From contig RDEW01000019.1 of assembly GCA_011109175.1 (NCBI GenBank), forward strand, positions 681,482 to 745,481: 64,000 nt of DNA, given 5' to 3'. Made by a program: the position numbers and the translations under genes. The notes under the pieces are model-generated. The model searched no databases and was not told where the DNA came from. It worked only from the letters and a program-made list of their open reading frames with translations. Of this stretch, positions 8,360 to 55,130 are shown in pieces (position 1 is the first letter of the stretch; every line of letters starts with the position of its first letter). The DNA comes from Dicyema japonicum. Its lineage: Eukaryota; Dicyemida; Rhombozoa; Dicyemidae.

Positions 8360-9497
8360 TTAATTATTATCGAATTCAAACACGCACATTAACGGGAAAT
8401 GATCTGAAGGATGATTCGAGGATGGGATTCCTCCATTAACTTCCACGTGGTTTCTTTTGGGTAATTGTAAATAGCAAGAAAGATTTAATCTCCATTTATC
8501 ACATTTTTCCGTATACCAAATATAATCTACCATTTTCCCACTCACGTGTGTGTAACATGAAATCCGTGATTCACTTGGATTATAGGCTGAGTTTAGAGAA
8601 AAGCTGTGGTGAACTTCTCCAGTTTGTTCGCATGACACGTTGTATAGAGGATCACTTAGTTCTTGACTTCCCTGCAAGTTTAGACTGGCATGTCCATCAC
8701 GAATAAATTTATAAAGCGGAGAGTGTGGATATAAATTCATGTCTCCACAGAGAATCACTGGAATTGAAGAATTATTGGTAACATGGTCAATTTTATCCAG
8801 CAAATGCATAATTTGAGCCAATTTGATGTCTCCACGTTTCATGTTGAAGTGAATGTGAGTGTTTGCGAAACATAAACGCTTAGAAGCATTTGCAGCTGTT
8901 AAAGAAAATACACCAATTTGACCGACATTCTGTCCAAAATACTGAAATCGGTCAATTTTGGAATATTCTACATCCAGGTAATCCTCAAGTTTCAATTTCT
9001 TCTTTTTCCAGGCCAAAAGACAACCAAATTCCGCGTTTCCCGTATTCTTCTTATAGCGTAGTTCATAACCTATGAATAATGATGATGCAATAAATTGAAG
9101 CATAAAATGTAATACAAACCAAGTTTACTAAGATTTGGTGTAAAATAGTCCTGGAGATACAAATCGTCGACTTCTTGCAGAGCCATGATCTACTTGGTAA
9201 TAAGCAATCTTACATCAGGATATGCGGATTTTATTTCAGCAAAAAGTAACTTGCATCTTTTATTCCACTCAAAATACTTCCGGTCGGTATATGAATAAAT
9301 GTGGGGCATTTTTTCACACAAGCGTCAGACAGGATGTTGTAACTCATCGCAGTAAGGCTGTTCTCTTTCAGTTCTGGACTATCACAATATTCTCCATTGG
9401 AATTCTTCCATTTTCTGCAACACATACCATCAAAGGAAATCTGATTCCTAATATTTGAGATGTGCACCTTAGGATGAGTAGTTATAATTTTTAGCAT
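8360..9497 (-). CDS. Angel-type endonuclease/exonuclease/phosphatase (CCR4-like) protein
   Basis: Member of the Mg-dependent EEP nuclease superfamily, closest to Angel proteins, which act on RNA 3' ends. Exons on the minus strand: 9497-9214, 9189-9120 and 9069-8360, with introns of 24 nt (9190-9213) and 50 nt (9070-9119). Splicing yields the family motif PDIMALQEVD across the first junction. Other motifs are AMSYNILSD near the start, FANTHIHFNMKRGDIKL, VILCGDMNLYPHSPLYKFI, VDYIWY and SDHFPLMCVF at the C-terminus, in the usual order with catalytic E, D, N, D and H in place. One problem: after NILSDACVKK the frame must shift by one base at an A run near 9,318 to reach HIYSYTDRKYFEW. One added A makes the total exactly 355 codons. 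I take this as a consensus error. Length (about 354 aa) covers the catalytic domain only, shorter than vertebrate Angel proteins. Confidence 0.88.
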
Positions 9498-18330: not shown

Positions 18331-18479
18331 AAAGGGCACCGCCACTTTCCTGCAGTAAAATCAATATATGGTATTTTTTAGTTAAAAAATAAATATTTAA
18401 TTAATAATTTCTTACGATTAATTTTTATTTTTTATTTATTACTTTTTGAATTTTTTATCTACAAATATTCCATTTGAAA

Positions 18480-19400
18480 CAAATACGGGCACTCCACAAG
18501 GAGACTCTCTTTCTCCTCTACTATTCACAATTTATTTGGAAGCCGCTATGAGGAACTTAGACCGTCATACCAAGGAAAGACGGAAGAAGTAATCTACGCG
18601 GACGATGTAGACCTAATTTCTGAAGACAAAGAGGTCCTGGAAAACCTATTAGAAAAAGCACCAGATGTACTAGGGAAATGGTTTCTTACTGTGAACAGAG
18701 AAAAAACAGAACTCACAGAGATAAGAAGGATGAGTAACGTCCTAGAAGAGAAGTGGCGACAAGTAAAGAAACTCGGTTCACTTATGGGAGATAGCGAAGA
18801 TATTTTACGTAGGAAAACTCTAGCCAATGCTGCGTTATATAAACTGAAGAATTTATGGCTCAATCAAAAAGGCATCGACACAAAATGAGAATCCTACTAT
18901 ACGACTCATTCATAAAACCCGTACTTTTATATAACGCTGGAACTTGGGCGACCTCATCAGCGGATATGAAAAAACTAGACTCGTTCCACAGAGGTCAACT
19001 GAGAAAAATAACAAACTACTTGGCCTACGAGAATATCTAGGAATGCTTATATATAAGAGTGCAGCACTAGACCTATCAGCTTAGAAGTACTGGAATCCCG
19101 ATGGAGGCTCTTCGGACACGTGCTGAGGATGGAATTAACTTCCCCACCGAACATATCTATGGAAACATACTATGTTAGTGAAGAAGGCCGCTATCGGGGA
19201 AGACCAAGAACAACACTGCCAATAGTCTTACAAAAAGACCTGGTCAGTATAAAAAAAAAAACCTAACAAATGCCGACGACCTGGACAGCATGAGAGCCTT
19301 GGCTAGGAACAGGGGAGCATGGAAAAGGATGACATCTAACCTTGTTTCTTTTGCTGCACATGCGGGGCTATAATTAGTATGGCTCTTGTGAAGTGCTTAA
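18480..19400 (+). mobile_element. LINE family 1, longest copy: reverse transcriptase to 3' end
   Basis: Non-LTR retrotransposon fragment. Reading frames with a few breaks give, in order: TGTPQGDSLSPLLFTIYLEA and IYADDVDLISED (reverse transcriptase motifs, including the YADD active site), KKLGSLMGDSEDILRRKTLA, ILLYDSFIKPVLLYNAGTWA, DSFHRGQLRKI, RLFGHVLRM, RGRPRTTLP and DDLDSMRALARNRGAWKRMT. The 3' untranslated end carries GGGGCTATAATTAGTATGGC. The layout resembles R4/Dong-like elements, but the clade cannot be fixed from this. At least a dozen fragments of the family are in this window. Confidence 0.8.
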
Positions 19401-30311: not shown

Positions 30312-32071
30312 CTAAACGGTATGTCGTTTTTTCGCTGTGTTGTTCATTATCAATAACTTCTTATTTTCTTCGTCAATAGTGGAAGGTAAATTTGAACATT
30401 CATTTTGTGAAGGATTGTCCGTTTGATTTTCTTCATTGTGTGATGAAGTTTTTATTGAATTTTCAAAATATACTTCGACATTCTCCATATAAGCGGACGT
30501 TTTAAAATCATTTTTATCTTTTGTAATCCCAGATGTTTCTTCAATTTGATTTCATTCATATCATATCAGAAATAACTTTATCTCCAGACTTATTTGTATC
30601 ATTTGAATCACTGATATGGTATTCATAAAATTCATACCTTATTTTTATAGCATTTTCGCTTGTTGTGCTGTATTGCAGATTAATTTCATCATTAGATTTT
30701 TCAATTACCGAACGTAAGTTTGGACAATTATTTTTTGAAGCAATGTCAATGTCTGAAGTATTTTCTTTATGTGTAAATGAATTGATTATTGTATTTTCTA
30801 CTTTTTCTTGGATATTCTCATTGTATATATTGGTTATAATTTCTTTTTCATTTTCAGTTTGTCGTGATGTTTCTTCATTTTTATTATCAATCGACATATT
30901 TTTCATTACATATTTATCTGATTTGACGGAATCTGAGAAATTTTCTGGATAAGAACTTTCTTTTAAAAAATGACTCTGAATTTTCAAATAAAGTTACTTT
31001 ACTTATTGGACCTTTCAAATATTCATATGATTGTACGGAATCTGAGGAATTTCCTGGAAATGAAAATTCGTTTGAGAAATGACTCTTTGAATTTTCAAAT
31101 ACATTCCCTGTACTCATAGGACCTTTCATATTTTCAAATGATTGGACTGAATCTGAGGAATTTCCTGAGGTAAACTTACGCTTGATAAATGACTCTTTGA
31201 ATTTTCAAATACATTCTCTGTACTCATAGGACCTTTCATATTTTCAAATGATTGGACGGAATCAGAGGAATTTCTGGAGGTAAACTTACGATTGATAAAT
31301 GACTCTTTGAATTTTCAAATAAATTCCCTGTACTCATAGGACCTTTCATATTTTCAAATGATTGTACGAATCTGAGGAATTTCCTGGATAAAACTTACGT
31401 TGATAAATGACTCTTTGAATTTTTTAATACATTCCCTGTACTCATTGGACCTTTCAAATATTCATATGATTGGACGGAATCTGAGGAATTTCCTGGAGGC
31501 AAGCTTACGCTTGATAAATGACTCTTTGAATTTTCAAATACATTCCCTGTACTCATAGGACCTTTCAAATATTCAATTGATTGGACGGAATCTGAGGAAT
31601 TTCTTGGATGCAAACTTACGCTTGATAAATGACTCTGAATTTTCAAATACATTCCCTGTACTTCATTGAACCTTTCAAATATTCATTTGATTGGACGGAA
31701 TCTGAGGAATTTCCTGGATAAAACTTTCGTTTAAAATGACTCTTTGAATTTTCAAATAATTTCTGTTACTAGGACCTTTCAAATTTTCAAATGATTGGAC
31801 GGAATCTGAGGAATTTCCTGGAGGCAAACTTACGTTTGATAAATGACTCTTTGAATTTTCAAATACATTCCCTGTACTCATTGGACCTTTCAAATTTTCA
31901 TATGATTGGACGGAATCTAAGGAATTTCCTGGATGCGAGCTTTCGTTTGATAAATGACTCTTGAATTTTCAAATGCATTCCTGTACTCATTCGACCTTTC
32001 AAATTTTCATATGATTGGACGGAATCTAAGGAATTTCCTGGAGGCGAGCTTTCGTTTGATAAATGACTCAT
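30312..32071 (-). CDS. Repeat protein, short paralogue (37-residue units plus one 98-residue-type exon)
   Basis: The function is unknown. From ATG 32071 the minus strand encodes about ten copies of a 111-bp, 37-residue unit with consensus KGPMSTGNVFENSKSHLS…PPGNSSDSVQSYEYL. A region related to one 98-residue unit of the long paralogue follows (ending NLQYSTTSENAIKIR), and then a 27-nt GT..AG intron. The intron is positionally identical to those in the long paralogue but contains no stop and stays in frame, so it could be retained without harm. A final exon encodes SDSNDTNKSGDKVISDM and, after a frame break, TSGITKDKN…LPSTIDEE to a stop at 30312. Several units carry one- or two-base indels, so the continuous frame needs about five corrections. 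No signal peptide or membrane segment is seen; composition is rich in S, N, E and P. Confidence 0.6.
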
Positions 32072-32449
32072 TGAATTTTGCTTCAGTTATTTAAGCGATA
32101 TTTTAAATTTTCTACAATTTATATTTGTAAAATTATTTGTAATATTATCTTTCAGTAAAATACTTAACGGGCTCTTGGTCTGAAAATAATAAAGTTGTAT
32201 CTATTCGACCAGTCATCGAGGTGACCTAGTCCATACTTTGGTATTCGTTGAGAAATATGTTATTCATGACTTGATGTTTCTACATTTTCTTTAATAGATT
32301 AAATTTTAATTATTTGATTGTTTTACCTCATATATTTCTTACTTATTGACATTTGATAACCAGCTTCATAATGTTTTCCTGACAATTAACGTCACTTCAC
32401 GACCAATAAGGTCACTATATTTTTAAAGGTAAAAAAACATAAATTATTA

Positions 32450-34575: not shown

Positions 34576-35911
34576 CAGGGTTTTCCTATTTATTTTATGA
34601 CTTGTCATAAAATTTGATAACTGTCAGAAAATTTAATAACTTTGTCAAAATGTTTAATAACTTTGTCAAATATTTATTGATCATTATTTATATTTATTGG
34701 ATCATTAAGTCCCTATAAAAACAAATTTTAGCAAAAAATGAATTAAATGAATAGTTACAAAAACTACTGTATCGAGGATAACCGAAAACTTATTATAAAT
34801 AAATATGAAGCAGGGTTGGCTTATTCAAAAATAAGCGAAGACATCTGTATTAACTACCAGACAGTTGTTTCTATCGTCAAAAAATACAAATATAAAGGAA
34901 GTTTTGCTTTTATAATAAATAATTGTGGACGAAAAAAAACTTAATTCATCGGACATCTAATTTTTGACTAAAAGACTTGAAGAAGATGCTTCATTTATGC
35001 TAAAGAATTTACAAAATTCTTTATTTGATGTGCAAAGAAAAAATGTCTCGACAATGAATAGACTCTATAGACATTTGGATATAGTTTAAGAAGATTCAAT
35101 TTGTACCTATGGCGAGAAATTCTACAATAAATATGGAAGAAAGATATAGATATGCCAGAAACATAATTGAAATTAATAATCAACGGCTTATTTTTATAAA
35201 CGAAATGGGAGTCAATTGTTCGATGAGATCAAATTTGGAAGATCTATAAAAGGAGTTACTCCGAAAAAATGTATTAGAAATATAAAAGAAAAAAATTTCT
35301 CTATTTGTGCTGCTATTTCAGTGGACAGCCTTTTACATTACGAAATCAATTCCTCCCCTTATCGCGCAGAGACGTTCGTTGATTTTGTAATATAGCTTGA
35401 TTATAAGCTTGAACGTGCAGGGAAAAAAGTATGGTTATATGTTATATTTAAGAAATGGTATTGATATGTGACAATGCATCAATTCACATGGGCGATCAAT
35501 TAAAAAATATTGTATTCGGAACTGGTATCCAATTAATTTTTAACGTGTATGAATTGTATTTTTTGCCTCTTATACTCCTCAACTTAATCCAATTGAAGAG
35601 TTTTTTTTCTGTTTGGAAAAATAACATTAAAAAGAAAAATTGTAGGAACTCTGAGGAATTAATAAACGCAATCCGAAACATCGGAGAAATTCCATCAGAT
35701 GTGTGCAATAATTTGTATAACCACATGCGGAGCTATTTAGTTAAAGCATTGGCTAATTTGAAGAATTTTAATTTACAGTTGTTTTTTTCGTGACCTTGAC
35801 AAAGTTATTAAACATTTTGACAAAGTTATTAAAATTGGCTTTTTTTAATTTGACCCTTGACATAGTTATTAAATTTTATGACAAAGTTATTAAATAAATA
35901 GGAAAACCCTG
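34576..35911 (+). mobile_element. Tc1/mariner-type transposon nested in a hAT element
   Basis: 1,336 bp flanked by TA (34574-34575 and 35912-35913), with inverted ends CAGGGTTTTCCTATTTATTT. The terminal regions repeat the motif AATAACTTTGTCAAAAT two or more times on each side, probably transposase binding sites. It carries a disrupted transposase between the ends. Confidence 0.9.
34747..35793 (+). pseudogene. Tc1/mariner transposase, disrupted
   Basis: The N-terminal helix-turn-helix part is open for 65 codons (NRKLIINKYEAGLAYSKISE, INYQTVVSIVKKY). The catalytic part follows in changing frames: RLIFINEMGVN (first acidic position, normally D, is N here), then LICDNASIHMGDQL (second D present), then YTPQLNPIEEFF in a +1 frame flanked by two compensating indels near 35,570 and 35,605. 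Stops occur around 35,090 and 35,395. The N substitution at a catalytic aspartate and the stops argue that it is inactive. Confidence 0.85.
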
Positions 35912-40740: not shown

Positions 40741-41084
40741 TTGAAAAATAACTACAAAATTACCAGTAATTTGCCAAAATAATAATAAATTTTTATAGAA
40801 AGAGGATAGATCATGGAAAGATGGGCCCAAAATAAAGCAATGCTTTCCAAAATATTACCTACCAGAAGTATCTCTGAATTCGTTCTGAGAGCTTATCAAG
40901 CCTTTTAATAAATAAGTTAGATAAAAGCACTTTCGCGTTCTCCCATAAATATGTGATTACTCAAGGTTTCGCTTGTGGTAAACTCGCTACTATCCATTCT
41001 ACTAGTTCCTCAATGTAGAATGGACAGAGTGAGAATACAACTAGAGAAGTGTCAGCCACTCAAAAGCATAGTTATTTTTCATAA

Positions 41085-41560
41085 AATAATTAATTGGCGA
41101 TGCAAGAAAACGAGCTGTGGAAGAACTCAAAATATTAAAATGAATTTATTGGTAGCAGTCTGCCAGGACTATTAAAATCGGAAGCTTCATCGTCAGTCAT
41201 GAGATTCCAAAAATAGGAATAGCCATTCACAGATGTTGAATACAAATCCTGTTTTCTAAAATTGTCACAATAACTATTCCAAAGTTTTACAAATAAAACA
41301 GAGATTTTAAATCAAATTAAAAATACACCGTTATCCGCAATTGTGAATAAAACGGATAAGATGTCTTGCAATGTGAAGATAAAACAAGTTGAAGACCTTA
41401 AATAGCTTCTGCAATTTCACTATTGGCGGAAGAAATGCATGGTCAATTATCTCATTAATTAGATTAAATATAATTTGTTATATTTTATTATTTAAAAAAA
41501 GCTCTCCAATTTTTTAATTGCCAAAAAACCAAAAATTGGCTCTTTAGCTTAAAAGGTTAC
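41085..41560 (+). mobile_element. hAT-like remnant, second copy
   Basis: It matches 29,860-30,145 (TTGGCGATGCAAGAAAAC, ACAGATGTTGAATACAAATC). It continues to a terminal block GGCTCTTTAGCTTAAAAGG that may be the decayed right end of the same hAT type whose left end is at 29,096. Confidence 0.5.
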
Positions 41561-42084: not shown

Positions 42085-45000
42085 TTAATTATGAATTTCG
42101 ATGTCGATTGTATCGCTTTGCTGATCATTATCAATAGCTTCTATAGATTCTTCATCGATGGTTGAAGGTAAATTTGAACATACATTTATTGAATGAACGA
42201 CATGGTCCGATTGATTTTCTTCATCGGAGGAAAAAAGGTTTAATTGAAATTTCAAAATTTACTTCGACATTCTCATTATAAGAAGACGTATTAAAATCAT
42301 TTTCATCTATTGTAATCCCAGATGTTTGTTCAATTTGATTTTCAATTAATGTAGTCATGTTCATATCAGAAATAAATTTATCTCCAGAGTTATTATATTG
42401 ATTTGAATCACTGATATCGTCATCATAACATTTTTACCTTGTTTTTAGTGCATTATCGTTTGTTGTACTGTATTGTTGATTAAATCGCTCATTTGATTCT
42501 TGGCTGATGATGAAGGGTATAATTGATGGACAGTTAATATAAGAGTGATTTTTTTCAAATGTTGATGTTTCGATAAATTGTTCTTCACCAGTTTCTTCTA
42601 AATTTTCATAATAGCCTGATATTTTATGTGCATTAATTTCGTCAGTTTCATTATTTTGAAAATCATTTAGTGTAGTCATTTTCAGATCAGAAATAACTTT
42701 ATCTCCAGAGTTATTAAATTCATTTGAATCACTGATATCGTCATCATAACATTTTTACCTTGTTTTTAGTGCATTATCGTTTGTTGTACTGTATTGTTTA
42801 ATAAATCGCTCATTAGATTCTTGGCTGATGATGAAGGGTATAATTGATGGACAGTTAATATAAGAGTGATTTTTTTCAAATGTTGATGTTTCGATAAATT
42901 GTTCTTCACCAGTTTCTTCTAAATTTTCATAATTGCCTGATATTTTATGTGCATTAATTTCGTCAGTTTCATTATTTTGAAAATCATTTAGTGTAGTCAA
43001 TTTTCAGATCAGAAATAACTTTATCTCCAGAGTTATTATTTGATTTGAATCACTGATATCGTCATCATAACATTTTTACCTTGTTTTAGTGCATTATCGT
43101 TTGTTGTACTGTATTGTTTAATAAATCGCTCATTAGATTCTTGGCTGATGATGAAGGGTATAATTGATGGACAGTTAATATAAGAGTGATTTTTTTCAAA
43201 TGTTGATGTTTCGATAAATTGTTCTTCACCAGTTTCTTCTAAATTCTCATAATTGCCTGATATTTTATGTGCATTAATTTCGTCAGTTTCATTATTTTGA
43301 AAATCATTTAATGTAGTCATTTTCAGATCAGAAATAACTTTATCTCCAGAGTTATTAGTTTGATTTGAATCACTGATATCGTCATCATAACATTTTTACC
43401 TTGTTTTTAGTGCATTATCGTTTGTTGTACTGTATTGTTTAATAAATCGCTCATTAGATTCTTGGCTGATGATGAAGGGTATAATTGATGGACAGTTAAT
43501 ATAAGAGTGATTTTTTTCAAATGTTGATGTTTCGATAAATTGTTCTTCACCAGTTTCTTCTAAATTCTCATAATTGCCTGATATTTTATGTGCATTAATT
43601 TCGTCAGTTTCATTATTTTGAAAATCATTTATGTAGTCATTTTCAGATCAGAAATAACTTTATCTCCAGAGTTATTAGTTTGATTTGAATCACTGATATC
43701 GTCATCATAACATTTTTACCTTGTTTTTAGTGCATTATCGTTTGTTGTACTGTATTGTTTAATAAATCGCTCATTAGATTCTTGGCTGATGATGAAGGGT
43801 ATAATTGATGGACAGTTAATATAAGAGTGATTTTTTTCAAATGTTGATGTTTCGATAAATTGTTCTTCACCAGTTTCTTCTAAATTCTCATAATTGCCTG
43901 ATATTTTATGTGCATTAATTTCGTCAGTTTCATTATTTTGAAAATCATTTAATGTAGTCATTTTCAGATCAGAAATAACTTTATCTCCAGAGTTATTAGT
44001 TTGATTTGAATCACTGATATCGTCATCATAACATTTTTACCTTGTTTTTAGTGCATTATCGTTTGTTGTACTGTATTGTTTAATAAATCGCTCATTAGAT
44101 TCTTGGCTGATGATGAAGGGTATAATTGATGGACAGTTAATATAAGAGTGATTTTTTTTCAAATGTTGATGTTTCGATAAATTGTTCTTCACCAGTTTCT
44201 TCTAAATTCTCATAATTGCCTGATATTTTATGTGCATTAATTTCGTCAGTTTCATTATTTTGAAAATCATTTATGTAGTCATTTTCAGATCAGAAATAAC
44301 TTTATCTCCAGAGTTATTAGTTTGATTTGAATCACTGATATCGTCATCATAACATTTTTACCTTGTTTTTAGTGCATTATCGTTTGTTGTACTGTATTGT
44401 TTAATAAATCGCTCATTAGATTCTTGGCTGATGATGAAGGGTATAATTGATGGACAGTTAATATAAGAGTGATTTTTTTCAAATGTTGATGTTTCGATAA
44501 ATTGTTCTTCACCAGTTTCTTCTAAATTCTCATAATTGCCTGATATTTTATGTGCATTAATTTCGTCAGTTTCATTATTTGAAAATCATTTAATGTAGTC
44601 ATTTTCAGATCAGAAATAACTTTATCTCCAGAGTTATTAGTTTGATTTGAATCACTGATATCGTCATCATAACATTTTTACCTTGTTTTTAGTGCATTAT
44701 CGTTTGTTGTACTGTATTGTTTAATAAATCGCTCATTAGATTCTTGGCTGATGATGAAGGGTATAATTGATGGACAGTTAATATAAGAGTGATTTTTTTC
44801 AAATGTTGATGTTTCGATAAATTGTTCTTCACCAGTTTCTTCTAAATTCTCATAATTGCCTGATATTTTATGTGCATTAATTTCGTCAGTTTCATTATTT
44901 GAAAATCATTTAGTGTAGTCATTTTCAGATCAGAAATAACTTTATCTCCAGAGTTATTAGTTTGATTTGAATCACTGATATCGTCATCATAACATTTTTA

Positions 45001-48000
45001 CCTTGTTTTTAGTGCATTATCGTTTGTTGTACTGTATTGTTTAATAAATCGCTCATTAGATTCTTGGCTGATGATGAAGGGTATAATTGATGGACAGTTA
45101 ATATAAGAGTGATTTTTTTCAAATGTTGATGTTTCGATAAATTGTTCTTCACCAGTTTCTTCTAAATTCTCATAATTGCCTGATATTTTATGTGCATTAA
45201 TTTCGTCAGTTTCATTATTTGAAAATCATTTAGTGTAGTCATTTTCAGATCAGAAATAACTTTATCTCCAGAGTTATTAGTTTGATTTGAATCACTGATA
45301 TCGTCATCATAACATTTTTACCTTGTTTTTAGTGCATTATCGTTTGTTGTACTGTATTGTTTAATAAATCGCTCATTAGATTCTTGGCTGATGATGAAGG
45401 GTATAATTGATGGACAGTTAATATAAGAGTGATTTTTTTCAAATGTTGATGTTTCGATAAATTGTTCTTCAACAGTTTCTTCTAAATTCTCATAATTGCC
45501 TGATATTTTATGTGCGTTATTTTCTTCAGTTTCTTTATTTTGAACTTCATTTAATGTAGTCATGTTCATATCAGAAATAACTTTATCTCCAGATTTAATA
45601 GTTTCATTTGAATCACTGATATCGTCATCATAAAATTTTTACCTTGTTTTTATTTCATTTTCGCTTGTTCTACTGTATTGTTGATTAATTTGCTCATTTG
45701 ATTCTTCGCTGATGTTAGAAGGTAGATTTGATGTAGAGCAAATATCTGAGGAATTTTTGACAAATGTTGATGTTTCGATTGATAGTTCTTCAACTGTTTC
45801 TTCTACATTCTCAAAACAGACAGATGTTATATGTGCGTTATTTTCTTCAGTTTCTTTATTTTGAACTTCATTTAATGTAGTCATGTTCATATCAGAAATA
45901 ACTTTATCTCCAGATTTATTAGTTTCATTTGAATCACTGATATCGTCATCATAAAATTTTTACCTTGTTTTTATTTCATTTTCGCTTGTTGTACTGTATT
46001 GTTGATTAATTTGCTCATTTGATTCTTCGCTGATGTTGAAGGGTAGATTTGATGTAGAGCTAATATCTGAGGAATTTTTGTCAAATGTTGATGTTTTCGA
46101 TAAATTGTTCTTCACCAGTTTCTTCTAAATTCTCATAATGCCTGATATTTTATGACTGCGTTATTTTCTTCAGTTTCTTTATTTTGAACTTCATTTAATG
46201 TAGTCATGTTCATATCAGAAATAACTTTATCTCCAGATTTATTAGTTTCATTTGAATCACTGATATCGTCATCATAAAATTTTTACCTTGTTTTTATTTC
46301 ATTTTCGCTTGTTGTACTGTATTGTTGATTAATTTGCTCATTTGATTCTTCGCTGATGTTAGAAGGTAGATTTGATGTAGAGCAAATATCTGAGGAATTT
46401 TTGTCAAATGTTGATGTTTCGATTGATAGTTCTTCAACTGTTTCTTCTACATTCTCATAATTGCCTGATATTTTATGTGCATTAATTTCGTCAGTTTCAT
46501 TATTTTGAAAATCATTTAGTGTAGTCATTTTCAGATCAGAAATAACTTTATCTCCAGAGTTATTAGTTTGATTTGAATCACTGATATCGTCATCATAAAA
46601 TTTTTACCTTGTTTTTATTTCATTTTCGCTTGTTGTACTGTATTGTTGATTAATTTGCTCATTTGATTCTTCGCTGATGATGAAGGGTATAATTGATGGA
46701 CAGTTAATATAAGAGTGATTTTTTTCAAATGTTGATGTTTCGATAAATTGTTCTTCACCAGTTTCTTCTAAATTCTCATAATTGCCTGATATTTTATGTG
46801 CATTAATTTCGTCAGTTTCATTATTTTTGAAAATCATTTAGTGTAGTCATTTTCAGATCAGAAATAACTTTATTATAGTAAGTATTAGTATTGATTTGAA
46901 TCACTGATATCGTCATCATAACATTTTTACCTTGTTTTTAGTGCATTATCGTTTGTTGTACTGTATTGTTTAATAAATCGCTCATTAGATTCTTGGCTGA
47001 TGATGAAGGGTATAATTGATGGACAGTTAATATAGAGTGATTTTTTTCAAATGTTGATGTTTCGATAAATTGTTCTTCACCAGTTTCTTTCTAAATTCTC
47101 ATAATTGCCTGATATTTTATGTGCATTAATTTCGTCAGTTTCATTATTTTTGAAAATCATTTAGTTGTAGTCATTTTCAGATCAGAAATAACTTTATCTC
47201 CAGAGTTATTAGTTTGATTTGAATCACTGATATCGTCATCATAACATTTTTACCTTGTTTTTAGTGCATTATCGTTTGTTGTACTGTATTGTTTAATAAA
47301 TCGCTCATTAGATTCTTGGCTGATGATGAAGGGTATAATTGATGGACAGTTAATATAAGAGTGATTTTTTTCAAATGTTGATGTTTCGATAAATTGTTCT
47401 TCACCAGTTTCTTCTAAATTCTCATAATTGCCTGATATTTTATGTGCATTAATTTCGTCAGTTTCATTATTTTGAAAATCATTTAGTGTAGTCATTTTCA
47501 GATCAGAAATAACTTTATCTCCAGAGTTATTAAATTCATTTGAATCACTGATATCGTCATCATAACATTTTTACCTTGTTTTTAGTGCATTATCGTTTGT
47601 TGTACTGTATTGTTTAATAAATCGCTCATTAGATTCTTGGCTGATGATGAAGGGTATAATTGATGGACAGTTAATATAAGAGTGATTTTTTTCAAATGTT
47701 GATGTTTCGATAAATTGTTCTTCACCAGTTTCTTCTAAATTCTCATAATTGCCTGATATTTTATGTGCATTAATTTCGTCAGTTTCATTATTTTGAAAAT
47801 CATTTAGTGTAGTCATTTTCAGATCAGAAAATAACTTTATCTCCAGAGTTATTAAATTCATTTGAATCACTGATATCGTCATCATAACATTTTTACCTTG
47901 TTTTTTAGTGCATTATCGTTTGTTGTACTGTATTGTTTAATAAATCGCTCATTAGATTCTTGGCTGATGATGAAGGGTATAATTGATGGACAGTTAATAT

Positions 48001-49885
48001 AAGAGTGATTTTTTTCAAATGTTGATGTTTCGATAAATTGTTCTTCACCAGTTTCTTCTAAATTTTCATAATAACCTGATATTTTATGTGCATTAATTTC
48101 GTCAGTTTCATTATTTTGAAAATCATTTAATGTAGTCATTTTCAGATCAGAAATAACTTTATCTCCAGAGTTATTAAATTCATTTGAATCACTGATATCG
48201 TCATCATAACATTTTTACTTGTTTTTAGTGCATTATCGTTGTGTTGTACTGTATTGTTTAATAAATCGCTCATTAGATTCTTGGCTGATGATGAAGGGTA
48301 TAATTGATGGACAGTTAATATAAGAGTGATTTTTTTCAAATGTTGATGTTTCGATAAATTGTTCTTCACCAGTTTTCTTCTAAATTCTCATAATTGCCTG
48401 ATATTTTTATGTGCATTAATTTCGTCAGTTTCATTATTTTGAAAATCATTTATGTAGTCATTTTCAGATCAGAAATAACTTTATCTCCAGAGTTATTAGT
48501 TTCATTTGAATCACTGATATCGTCATCATAACATTTTACCTTGTTTTTAGTGCATTATCGTTTGTTGTACTGTATTGTTTAATAAATCGCTCATTAGATT
48601 CTTGGCTGATGATGAAGGGTATAATTGATGGACAGTTAATATAAGAGTGATTTTTTTCAAATGTTGATGTTTCGATAAATTGTTCTTCACCAGTTTCTTC
48701 TAAATTCTCATAATTGCCTGATATTTTATGTGCATTAATTCGTCAGTTTCATTATTTTGAAAATCATTTAGTGTAGTCATTTTCAGATCAGAAATAACTT
48801 TATCTCCAGAGTTATTAGTTTTTATTCGAATCACTCAAATATTCATATGATTGGACGGAATCCGAGGAATTTCCTGGAGCCATACTTTCGTTTGAGAAAT
48901 AACTCTTTGAATTTTCAAATACATTTCCTGTACTTATTGTATTTTTCAAATATTCATTTGATTGTTCGAAATCTGAATAATTTTCTGGAAGCGAACTTAT
49001 GCTTGATAATTGACTCTTCGAATTTTCAAATACATTTCCTTTACTCATAGCACCTTTCAAATATTCACATGATTGGACTGAATCCGAGGAATTTCCTGAG
49101 GCAAACTTTCGTTTGAAAAAGAACTCTTTGATTTTTCAATTACATTTCCTGTACTCATTGGACCTTTCAAATATTCATTTGATTGGGAAGAATTTCCTGG
49201 AGGCGAACTTATGCTTGATAAATGACTTTTTGAATTTTCAAATAAATTTCCTGTACTCATAGGACCTTTCAAATATTCATATGATTGGACGGAATCCGAA
49301 GAATTTCCTGGAGGTAAACTTTCGTTTGAGAAATAACTCATTGAATTTTCAAATACATTTCCTGTACTCATAGGACCTTTCAAATATTCATATGATTGGA
49401 CGGAATCCGAGGAATTTCCTGGAGGCAAACTTTCGTTTGAGAAATAACTCTTTGAATTTTCAGATCATTTCCTGTATTCATTGGACCTTTCAAATATTCA
49501 TTTGATTGGGCGAAATCTGAAGAATTTTCTGGAGGCGAACTTATGCTTGATAAATGACTCTTTGAATTTCCACATACATTTCCTGTAATCATAGCACCTT
49601 TCAAATATTCACATGATTGGACGGAATCCGAGGAATTTCCTGGAGGCAAACTTTCGTTTGAGAAAGAATTCTTTGAATTTTCAAATACATTTCCTGTATT
49701 CATTGGACCTTTCAAATATTCATTTGATTGGAAGAATTTCCTGGAGGCGAACTTATGCTTGATAAATGACTTTTTGAATTTTCAAATACATTTCCTGTAC
49801 TCATTGGACCTTTCAAATATTCATATGATTGAACGGAATCTGAAGAATTTCCTGGAGGCGAGCTTACGTTTGATAAATGACTCAT
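42085..49885 (-). CDS. Giant repeat protein: ten 37-residue units plus about twenty tandem 98-residue exons
   Basis: The function is unknown. From ATG 49885 the minus strand encodes ten 111-bp units (consensus KGPMSTGNVFENSKSHLS…PPGNSSDSVQSYEYL), down to 48,836. A series of 294-bp exons follows (T GAT TCA … ACA AG), each encoding 98 residues with the core MTTLNDFQNNETDEINAHKI, then ETSTFEKNHSYINCPSIIPF and RFIKQYSTTNDNALKT. Each is separated from the next by a 27-nt intron (GTAAAAATGTTATG…ATATCAG) with an immediate in-frame TAA. I count 20 introns from 48,514 to 42,411 at a 321-bp period. All exons are symmetric (phase 2/2), so any number can be spliced in frame. A unique last exon ends …DTIDIEIHN at 42085. 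The predicted protein is roughly 2,400 residues, acidic and N/S/T/E-rich, without visible membrane segments. Scattered one-base indels break individual units. There is no homology I know of; a surface or secreted role is only a guess. Confidence 0.65.
42411..48835 (-). repeat. 321-bp tandem exon-intron array (about 20 units)
   Basis: The period is 321 bp: 294-bp exon plus 27-nt intron. Intron starts (plus coordinates) include 42,411, 42,732, 43,053 and onward to 48,514. Most units are nearly identical. Units at about 45,640-46,530 belong to a second subtype (core ETSTFVKNSSDICSTSNLPS), and several units are chimeras of the two. Confidence 0.95.
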
Positions 49886-49895
49886 TAAATATTGC
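48836..49895 (-). repeat. 111-bp coding tandem repeat, ten units
   Basis: Units start about every 111 bp (TTCAAATATTCATATGATTGG on the plus strand at 48,836, 48,946, 49,056 and so on). The homologous array at 30,990-32,080 has about ten units as well. Confidence 0.9.
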
Positions 49896-50015
49896 TTCAG
49901 TTATTGAAACTATATTTTAAATTTTCTACAATTTATATTTGTAAAATTATTTTGTAATATTATCTTTCAGTAATTTACTTAACGGGCTTTTGGTCTAGAA
50001 ATAATAAAGTTATAT

Positions 50016-50123
50016 TGTCATACTCCGAGATTGGAATTTGAATATCCATACTCCGAGGGAACTCGTTCGCAATCCACGCAGCAGGCTTCCTCAACTGACA
50101 TTTTTTTAATTGTTAAAAAAAGA
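50016..50123 (-). mobile_element. 108-bp insertion with 7-bp target duplication carrying a gene's 5' end
   Basis: The paralogous locus at about 32,190 is an empty site, and here 108 bp is flanked by GTTATAT on both sides (50009-50015 and 50124-50130). In minus orientation the insert holds a T/A-rich leader, then ATG and a frame MSVEEACCVDCERVPSEYGY, the same as at 24,522, ending in a partly duplicated CTCGGAGTATG segment. Confidence 0.75.
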
Positions 50124-50399
50124 GTTATATCTATTCGATTAGTCATCGAGGTGTTCTAGTCCATCCTTTGTTATCTTTGAAAAATATGTTTTTCATGACT
50201 TGATGTTTCTACATTTTCTTTAATAGATTAAATTTTAATTCTTTGTTTGTTTTACCTCATATATTATCTTACTTATTGACATTTTATAACCACCTTCATA
50301 ATTATAGCGTTTCCTGACAATTAACGTCACTTTCACGACCAATAAGGTCACTATATTTTTAATGGTAAAAAACTTAAAAACAAAAAATAATTAACAAAC

Positions 50400-50830
50400 A
50401 AAAATTAAGAAATTATTCCATGATAAAATTAAGAAGCATTTTCCTATAGTTTTTCATGTGCTGAATGCATTCTCAATCGGATTGGAAAATTGTGGGTAAA
50501 GCAGTAAATTTGGAACATGGTGGTTTTATTTCAATTAAATCGTTTATACCTGTATAATACGGGCATTATCAAAAATAAAGAGCCGGATTTCAATTTCCTC
50601 TTTATATCAATTTTTATGGATTCCAGAAAAATTAGTCATTGATGCAATGACTTATGACCTCTAAAGGAATGTGGTTTTGAGGTAGAAGATCCTTCTCCAC
50701 GTCTTGGTTTTGAGCATACTGCAAATCCAACGTAAATTATTATGTTCTTTTGTCCAATAAATTTATTTACCTTTATCTCAATGTTAATGATTAGAAAGCG
50801 ACGCTATTAGCCAGAAAAATTACGTTAAAT
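50400..50830 (-). pseudogene. DDE transposase relic (Tc1/IS630-like), copy 2
   Basis: The minus frame reads IFDNARIIQV, then stops, then NLLLYPQFSNPIENAFST: the second catalytic block and the PxNPIE block of Tc1/IS630-type transposases. It belongs to the same duplicated segment as 32,450-32,880. Confidence 0.55.
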
Positions 50831-53502: not shown

Positions 53503-55130
53503 TTACCACAAGAAAACTGTTTTCACGTAATTCGACTTTTTGCTTCCCTTTTTAGAAACTTTTTTCAAGTTTTGGTCAAACAAATCATTTTCGGTCAAAA
53601 TCTTTCGAGTCAAAGATTTTTTCTCGTTCAACAGATTAGTCTGTAGTTTATTTCTCCATTCAAGTTCGAAGATATTTTAGCGGTTTTAAGCTTGTATTCT
53701 GTTTTTTCTGGTATTTCATCATCCGAAATGATATCTTGGCAATAATTGTTTAAATTCCGATTTTCATTTCCCGTCCAATCGAAAATAATTTCTTGTAAAT
53801 CATCATTCTGCTTAGTATTATAAGCGGATTTGTTAGAGTAATTAGCAGGTAATCCATTTGCCATTGGATTTGTGTCAATTTTGACGTCACTTAGCATTTC
53901 TTTGCTTATAAAGTCATTTTCATTGCCCAGAATTCCATTTTTGGATTCTGAATATTTTTCTTTAGTGTTTTCCTCATCTTGAATATTAATTAAGTTGGTT
54001 TCCAAGGGAATGTCCTTTAATTGGTCATTATTTCCGGAATAATAGGAGGGGACCGAATCAATACCATAATTATCAGTGGGTTCAGAGGAACTATTGAAGG
54101 CATCTACTTTTTCTGAGTAATTTTCTTCGTCGGTGCTATATTTTTCTGACCCTTGGAAATCTTTGAATGATTCCCAAATAGGTAAACTATCCGTCGAGTC
54201 CTGAATCAAAAAATCCTTAGTGTCTGGAAGTGTTCTTTCCAAAGCTGAGTCAGGAGTTATAGAGTTTTTGTGAAATTCTTGGGCTCTCTTATCAAATATA
54301 GACAGTTCAGAAACATTCACTCCTGATTCTTGGATGGATTCGCATAAATATTCAAAATATTCAACGGAATTAGAAGAATATTTAACAGATCCACCTCTTT
54401 TAGGGTTTGGAGACGAGTTCTTGTTGCAAAATAGCGTATCGTCGTCGGAAAACAAATCCATTGACGCATATTTCATGTCTGTTTTCAACGAAGCTGAGTT
54501 AAATCCAAATTTCTTGGGTTTGTATGAGGAATATATATCGTCAGGTTCTATCTGATCCAATTCATCGAAATCTATTTTTCCTTTCATGTCTTTTATTTTC
54601 TCATTTTTCTCGGCAAACGGCTTTAAATCAGTTTTTTGATCGTTCTGAATCGATTTGTCAAAAATGTTCAAATCCAAATTAACTTTCCATGTTTTCTAGG
54701 TCATCAAGTTTCTAAATAAACCCCGAGATTGGAAAGAAATATTATATTGTTCCATGAAGTGCTCAGTCCTTCTATAAGTCGCAATATTGACTCCCAAGTG
54801 TCGCTGTCCTCTGGTAAATTAATCTTTTTGGCTTGAAAATAGAGTTGGTTAAGTTTATTAGGATAATCCGCTGTAAGCAATTTAATATCCTGAGATTAAG
54901 TATTTCTGAATACTGTGAGTGAAAGCGACTGCCTTTTCTCAGCCAGAACCTCCATTTTTGCTAGTCTTTTTCGAAGCTGTTCGTATGCAATCAGAAATTG
55001 GTTCAACGATCGTCTGCACGAGGCGTCTGATATTTCTTTGAACTATGGAATTTGAAATAAAAAAATAGCTGTTACAGAGCTTATTAGATCGCTTAGTTGA
55101 TTGTGCTTGACTTGAATGCTGCATTGGACT
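53503..55130 (-). CDS. Acidic multi-exon protein, unrecognised
   Basis: Four exons are supported: one ending at 55076 (…NQLSDLISS), then 55042-54914, 54889-54722 and 54695-53503. Introns are 33, 24 and 26 nt (GT..AG, each with a stop or frame change). The N-terminal part is helical (KEISDASCRRSLNQFLIAYE, EQLRKRLAKMEVLAEKRQ, DTWESILRLIEGLSTSWNNI). The long middle is acidic and disordered, with repeated D/E/S/N blocks and short aromatic motifs such as MDLFSDDDTLF, reminiscent of trafficking adaptor-binding segments. Near 53,680 the frame must shift by one base at an A4 run. The C-terminus then reads FELEWRNKLQTNLLNEKKSL, KKVSKKGSKKSNYVKTVFLW and stop at 53503. The 5' end is not defined. I recognise no family; it may be an endosomal or cytoskeletal adaptor, but that is a guess from composition. 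Confidence 0.72.

Follow-up and report, generated by a model that had tools for sequence, protein, structure and literature searches.

A candidate tandem array of one exon with its 27-nucleotide intron in Dicyema japonicum

The array on the minus strand

The DNA analysed here, called the window below, is a stretch of 64,000 nucleotides (nt) from Dicyema japonicum (assembly GCA_011109175.1, contig RDEW01000019.1, positions 681,482 to 745,481; GC content 33.9%), and our subject is a tandem array within it that can be read as one putative exon repeated together with a very short putative intron. All positions are those of the window. Tandem Repeats Finder placed a tandem repeat with a period of 321 nt at 42342-48835, counting 20.2 copies with 96% matches and a score of 11487. 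On the minus strand, the array at 42411-48833 consisted of 20 head-to-tail units of 321 nt followed by a diverged 21st exon, and a motif scan of this strand resolved each unit into a 294-nt exon and a GT...AG segment, which was 27 nt long in 19 of the 20 units and 26 nt in the remaining one. Unit 1 was joined without an intron to a separate array of 110-base-pair (bp) repeats on its 5' side. The features of the candidate gene were as follows.

42438..48833, minus strand: 20 putative exons in tandem, each about 294 nt or 98 codons long, of phase 2/2 and followed by a putative intron of 27 nt, period 321
42438..48833, minus strand: predicted protein unit of the tandem exons, ...SDSNQTNNSGDKVISDLKMTTLNDFQNNETDEIN...NALKTS (translation)
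42411..48539, minus strand: span of the 20 GT...AG segments (motif scan)
48539-48514 (26 nt), 48218-48192, 47896-47870, 47574-47548, 47253-47227, 46930-46904 and 46607-46581, minus strand: segments 1-7, high to low
46286-46260, 45963-45937, 45642-45616, 45321-45295, 45001-44975, 44681-44655 and 44361-44335, minus strand: segments 8-14, high to low
44040-44014, 43719-43693, 43399-43373, 43079-43053, 42758-42732 and 42437-42411, minus strand: segments 15-20, high to low
42085..42410, minus strand: terminal exon, which is the 21st, diverged copy of the unit, ends in a TAA stop (42085-42087) and has its frame broken once, at a T run, in the assembly
48835..49885, minus strand: 110-bp (about 37-codon) repeat array, with a possible start ATG at 49885-49883; its frame is broken in places as assembled

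The segment and its context read GTAAAAAT(G/T)TTATGATGACGATATCAG in each unit (20 occurrences). AACAAG stood directly 5' of the segment in 19 of 20 cases and AAACAA in one, TGATTC followed directly 3' in all 20, and GT and AG were intact in every copy. A codon AG|T bridges every junction, so that the phase is 2/2 and each exon amounts to 98 codons when the 27 nt are taken out. Left unspliced, the unit frame runs over 107 codons with a single TAA, which lies inside the GTAA donor of the segment and is the sole in-frame stop of an intact unit. If a tandem exon duplication is taken as at least two homologous adjacent exons whose symmetric phase keeps the frame, the array presents 20 copies and a diverged terminal copy of a putative exon of 294 nt and phase 2/2, intact as assembled in 6 of the 20.

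A preliminary description of this DNA had proposed an about twenty-fold amplification of an exon with its 27-nt segment, symmetric in phase (2/2) and with an immediate stop upon intron retention, and our count of 20 units at a period of 321, the AG|T junctions and the TAA in the donor agree with it. It had also placed the array at 42411-48835; the array is indeed there, but the repeat proper ends at 48833, where it is fused to the 110-bp array, and a diverged 21st copy extends over 42410-42085. The unit was said to be exactly 294 plus 27 nt, which holds for most units, though one segment has 26 nt and the exons range over 293-296 nt (commonest 294). Near-identity of the exons applies to exons 12-18 (0-1 substitutions), whereas exons 7-11, at 12-47 substitutions from exon 16, form a diverged, partly chimeric group, exon 11 being one example of a chimeric unit. 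The frame breaks, the flanking 110-bp repeats and the paralogue treated below were absent from that description. Protein and DNA searches with the unit covered the assembly (64.67 Mb, 191 contigs); among the best candidates, which were the ones scored, there was no second array, and the unit had a single diverged relative, located on the array's own contig.

The putative intron and the coding frame

Introns of dicyemids are known to be ultrashort. Two reports give a length of 26.2 +/- 1.9 nt (n=16; PMC2222250) and a median of 27 bp (PMC6543705), while D. japonicum was reported to have a 67.5-Mb genome with a mean intron of 38.2 bp, a GC content of 36.7% and 16 homeobox genes (PMC6736024). In our analysis, seven homology-anchored introns in kinase and homeodomain genes elsewhere in the genome measured 22, 22, 22, 23, 24, 25 and 27 nt, and taking them out gave Pfam matches across the joint in five kinases and two complete homeodomains. 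These seven were the ones resolved and tested among 12 candidate gaps displayed (5 were left unresolved, and one locus, L066, lay outside the sample), and their lengths are a non-random sample since the loci were picked because the spacing hinted at short introns. In Trichinella, by comparison, median introns measure 72-83 bp (PMC11242134). Both the introns of 22-27 nt and the assembly size of 64.67 Mb suit a dicyemid, while the number of homeodomain matches given below does not. Since the genome uses introns of 22-27 nt, the array segment, which matches dicyemid ultrashort introns in length and GT-AG signals, has the appearance of a normal intron of this host.

Another way to account for the in-frame TAA would be a reassigned codon read as an amino acid, in which case there would be no intron. 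TAA is the only in-frame stop of the intact unit, as such a reading would have it. However, five of the seven resolved introns carry an in-frame stop, one of them TAA, the terminal exon itself ends in TAA, and the intact units hold no other TAA codon. Many stops lie within the kinase matches, and this argument covers those in the resolved introns. We disfavour reassignment and regard it as very improbable.

How often a stop would be covered by chance was estimated by placing one at each inner codon (12 omitted per end) of four frames from the neighbourhood. A frame-keeping GT...AG of 18-36 nt spanned the nonsense codon at 75 of 598 positions under a loose rule, and at 7 of 598 when the context AG|GT...YAG was demanded; all 7 lay in the frame of the paralogue that contains the homologous segment. 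Two observations weigh against splicing here: the loose rate of 12.5% is non-negligible when splice context is ignored, and an unanchored scan for GT...AG joining open frames over 148 kb showed no clear length peak relative to five control dinucleotide pairs, with a slight excess at 24-25 nt. That a well-formed intron coincides precisely with the sole stop, in a genome where introns of this kind occur, is good though non-conclusive evidence that the segment is an intron, and an exon plus a 27-nt intron is the best reading of the unit.

The frame of the unit is coding-like, and its base composition differs strongly between codon positions. The G content of exon 16 was 0.24/0.07/0.04 at codon positions 1/2/3, and that of a nearby open reading frame (ORF) of 355 amino acids was 0.28/0.08/0.14, in the same direction. 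When the 20 exons were joined (5,884 nt), a frame-path count needed 9 frame switches and met 12 stops, against 7 switches and 92 stops on the opposite strand; the stops rose to 28 with the 27-nt segments left in, and three flanking control stretches (659-998 nt) gave 8-17 stops each under the same setting. The two intact exons that have diverged most from each other, 16 and 10, showed 50 differences and zero stops; placed randomly, these differences left the frame stop-free in 3.3% of 20,000 simulations. The units fall on the disordered side of the charge-hydropathy rule for disorder, and a single-sequence AlphaFold model of one unit (pLDDT 58, pTM 0.17) was uninformative, though compatible with disorder. 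Together with the lack of amino-acid conservation described below, this is in keeping with an acidic, Asn/Ser/Glu-rich repeat protein under loose constraint. No Pfam match for the unit was found at E 0.01, and no Rfam match in the window. A Pfam match of the 110-bp repeat ORF to 'TNT' (E 0.0047, 17.8 bits with a cut-off of 27) was judged a composition artefact.

Several results speak against a functional coding gene. As assembled, only exons 5, 8, 10, 11, 16 and 20 are intact, i.e. open at 294 nt; the other 14 of the 20 are out of frame through 1-nt indels (2-nt in exon 9). One indel is common to exons 12-14 and could be a genuine inherited frameshift, and the frame is likewise interrupted in sequence beyond the array, namely the 110-bp arrays and the terminal exon. 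The ratio of nonsynonymous to synonymous substitution rates (dN/dS) in seven exon pairs was 1.38, 1.01, 1.49, 0.50, 0.76, 2.82 and 1.21, about 1 overall, so that no conservation of amino acids was seen, and no homologue of the unit was found in the protein collection searched. Most of these results, together with breaks in the paralogous gene and the dispersed repeats on the flanks, are what a decaying pseudogene or a coding-derived satellite would show, in which the protein was lost, the frameshifts are real and the units spread by unequal exchange only.

However, the pattern of the breaks points elsewhere. In 13 of the 19 adjacent exon pairs (those with at most 6 substitutions each) there were 23 substitutions and 33 indels, the reverse of five other duplicate pairs of the window, with 126 substitutions and 38 indels (Fisher p 2e-6; overlapping pairs are counted, which makes this p too small but leaves no doubt about the direction). 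Three gene pairs of the segmental duplication described below were omitted from this background (30:8, 18:0 and 142:18 substitutions to indels), and adding them makes the array stand out more. Under real decay, substitutions should outnumber indels; assembly error is therefore the better reading, and the counts suggest that most frame breaks are unpolished assembly indels in a near-identical repeat. The coding-like frame low in stops and the unbroken series of GT and AG dinucleotides also tell against decay. A pseudogene is the main rival, though we consider it unlikely.

We consider it probable, on the strength of the sequence, that the locus is a lineage-specific coding gene in which tandem amplification of a symmetric exon of 98 codons, along with its 27-nt phase-2 intron, yielded about 20 copies. 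Splicing would proceed by intron definition, the nearest donor being joined to the nearest acceptor, and the product would be a long, acidic, Asn/Ser/Glu-rich repeat protein, probably disordered. Skipping or renumbering of units would keep the frame, while retention of any intron would give a stop. Splicing at the locus, the protein and a variable copy number are what we infer from this arrangement, and a role as a fast-changing surface or matrix repeat protein is our guess at its function.

Paralogue A and the origin of the array

Comparison of the window with itself (blastn) revealed a segmental duplication joining 29.8-32.8 kb, which contains the paralogous gene A, and 41.1-50.8 kb. Gene A lies about 12 kb from the array and has the same order of parts: a 110-bp array, an exon alpha, a 27-nt GT...AG segment and an exon beta.

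30312..32080, minus strand: gene A, with its 110-bp array, exon alpha, one 27-nt segment and exon beta (terminal); several frame breaks
30611..30637, minus strand: GT...AG segment of gene A, 27 nt, homologous to those of the array and free of in-frame stops
49893..50808, minus strand: dispersed-repeat flank, right edge of the segmental duplication, outside the gene
41063..41367, minus strand: dispersed-repeat flank, left edge of the segmental duplication, outside the gene

The frame breaks of gene A lie in its 110-bp array and terminal exon, and it is possibly a pseudogene. In a simulation on the 110-bp arrays, 8.5 stops were expected from the 130 substitutions between the two copies; stops due to frame breaks were not cleanly separable from those due to substitutions, and the simulation supports no claim. 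A transposon origin of the array was considered, the flanks being dispersed repeats, but it was rejected: all matches to the tandem repeats themselves lay on one contig.

Exons alpha and beta can be aligned to each other, and four of the 20 units (exons 8, 10, 16 and 20) were aligned to both. The first part of the aligned units was nearest to beta; in exon 16 it agreed with the terminal exon of the array gene at 34 of 37 and 34 of 40 bases. The tail of the unit was nearest to alpha (29 of 38 bases in exon 16, 32 of 38 in exon 10), while the middle blocks were about 40-75% identical to both, with no consistent preference. These similarities suggest that the array originated by unequal crossing-over between homologous exons. 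The ancestral gene, approximated by gene A, would have had the homologous exons alpha and beta around one 27-nt intron. Recombination of alpha with beta on misaligned chromatids would then have yielded a beta-alpha hybrid exon bordered by the intron at either end, which is the repeat unit, and further unequal exchange would have added exon-plus-intron units and created chimeric ones. Diverged and chimeric exons 7-11 beside near-identical exons 12-18 are expected from such further exchange.

The segment of gene A is open in frame (YEFYEYHI), and the flanking frame is unchanged. It is either an intron in which the open frame and the length divisible by three are coincidental, or former coding sequence that was intronized. 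In the latter case, the 27 coding nt would have become an obligatory intron when a Tyr codon TAT changed to TAA at the donor, and the new intron would then have been copied 20-fold; we regard this as a rather doubtful step in the history of the array. That duplicated coding sequence can turn into an intron has been described (PMC2891723).

The open segment also admits a reading in which the 27 nt are coding throughout: the Tyr codon would have become TAA before the amplification, the protein would end in unit 1, and the other units would be untranslated. A length that is a multiple of three and varies in no copy bar the one of 26 nt would agree with this. However, stops could then accumulate freely in later units, but the 50 differences between the most diverged intact types gave none (P 0.033), and the stop is covered exactly by an AG|GTAA...CAG that is competent for splicing and has a length typical of the genome. 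We hold this reading to be improbable, and the amplified exon with its intron remains the preferred one.

Several further observations were made around the locus. The right flank contains an 86-bp interspersed repeat (50036-50121), the counterpart of which is lacking in the duplicate near gene A; among the best 40 of 832 candidates, which were the ones scored, it recurred at 35 further places of the genome, with 97-98% identity at 33. The 355-amino-acid acidic ORF is at 53628-54695, and a protein search with it matched itself only. Just downstream of its stop, 580 bp (53605-53027) were 89% identical to L075 2023-2598 (C94, about 755 kb), and this match adjoins pieces of the 110-bp repeat; perhaps there is a local family of fast-changing acidic proteins. 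Transposon relics were seen at 35452-35790 and 18478-18885, as DDE_3-like and reverse-transcriptase-like ORFs, both under the Pfam cut-off. An ORF at 8363-9124 on the minus strand matched Exo_endo_phos (E 2.4e-8), resembled neutral sphingomyelinase by eye and had four distant matches in a protein search. Genome-wide, homeodomain matches were found at 67 places, fragments included, with none in 14 control genomes under the same search, and PAX matches at 8 places, both of which point to an animal. The 67 matches far exceed the 16 homeobox genes reported for the species, for which an incomplete published gene set is one possible reason.

Comparison with known systems and implications

The preliminary description knew of no family with such an arrangement, which is too strong, for two related systems are known. 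In human LPA, according to one report, each kringle IV-2 is encoded by two short exons, there are up to 40 repeats, and exon identity is 98-100% (PMC7613587). The array resembles it in that exons were amplified in tandem with their introns inside a gene. However, kringle IV-2 has a unit of about 5.5 kb with two exons, kilobase introns, a folded kringle, and proven expression and copy-number variation, whereas the array has a 321-nt unit with one exon and a 27-nt intron and is known from the sequence of one assembly. The micro-exon genes of schistosomes have symmetric exons and are thought to yield protein variants by alternative splicing (PMC5825161). The array shares with them the symmetric exons and a parasitic spiralian host, but those genes carry most of their coding sequence in many symmetric exons of 6-36 bp, whereas here one putative exon of about 294 nt recurs 20 times.

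The ultrashort introns of dicyemids have the same size as the array segments but were reported in ordinary genes, and no amplified exon-intron array appears in the accessible parts of the dicyemid intron reports (PMC2222250, PMC6543705). A limited search of the literature on tandem exon duplication and dicyemid tandem repeats, by titles and the beginnings of abstracts, returned no comparable array. Compared with intron gain by tandem duplication or intronization, the intron of the array would have arisen once and then been copied along with its exon. Tandem exon duplication is known; what is new is the extreme form, a one-exon unit of 321 nt with a 27-nt intron, repeated 20 times.

If the locus is spliced as read, a single transcript would bring together 20 copies of one exon and as many 27-nt introns that are nearly the same as each other. 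Any donor could then pair with any downstream acceptor; the products of skipping would all be in frame, while retention would always stop translation. The array would thus be a natural tandem reporter of how strictly a spliceosome with such short introns pairs neighbouring sites. The pair of paralogues is a case for a rise in intron number by exon amplification, and possibly for intronization, and if the latter is true, about 20 introns would have been gained by segmental amplification of one new intron.

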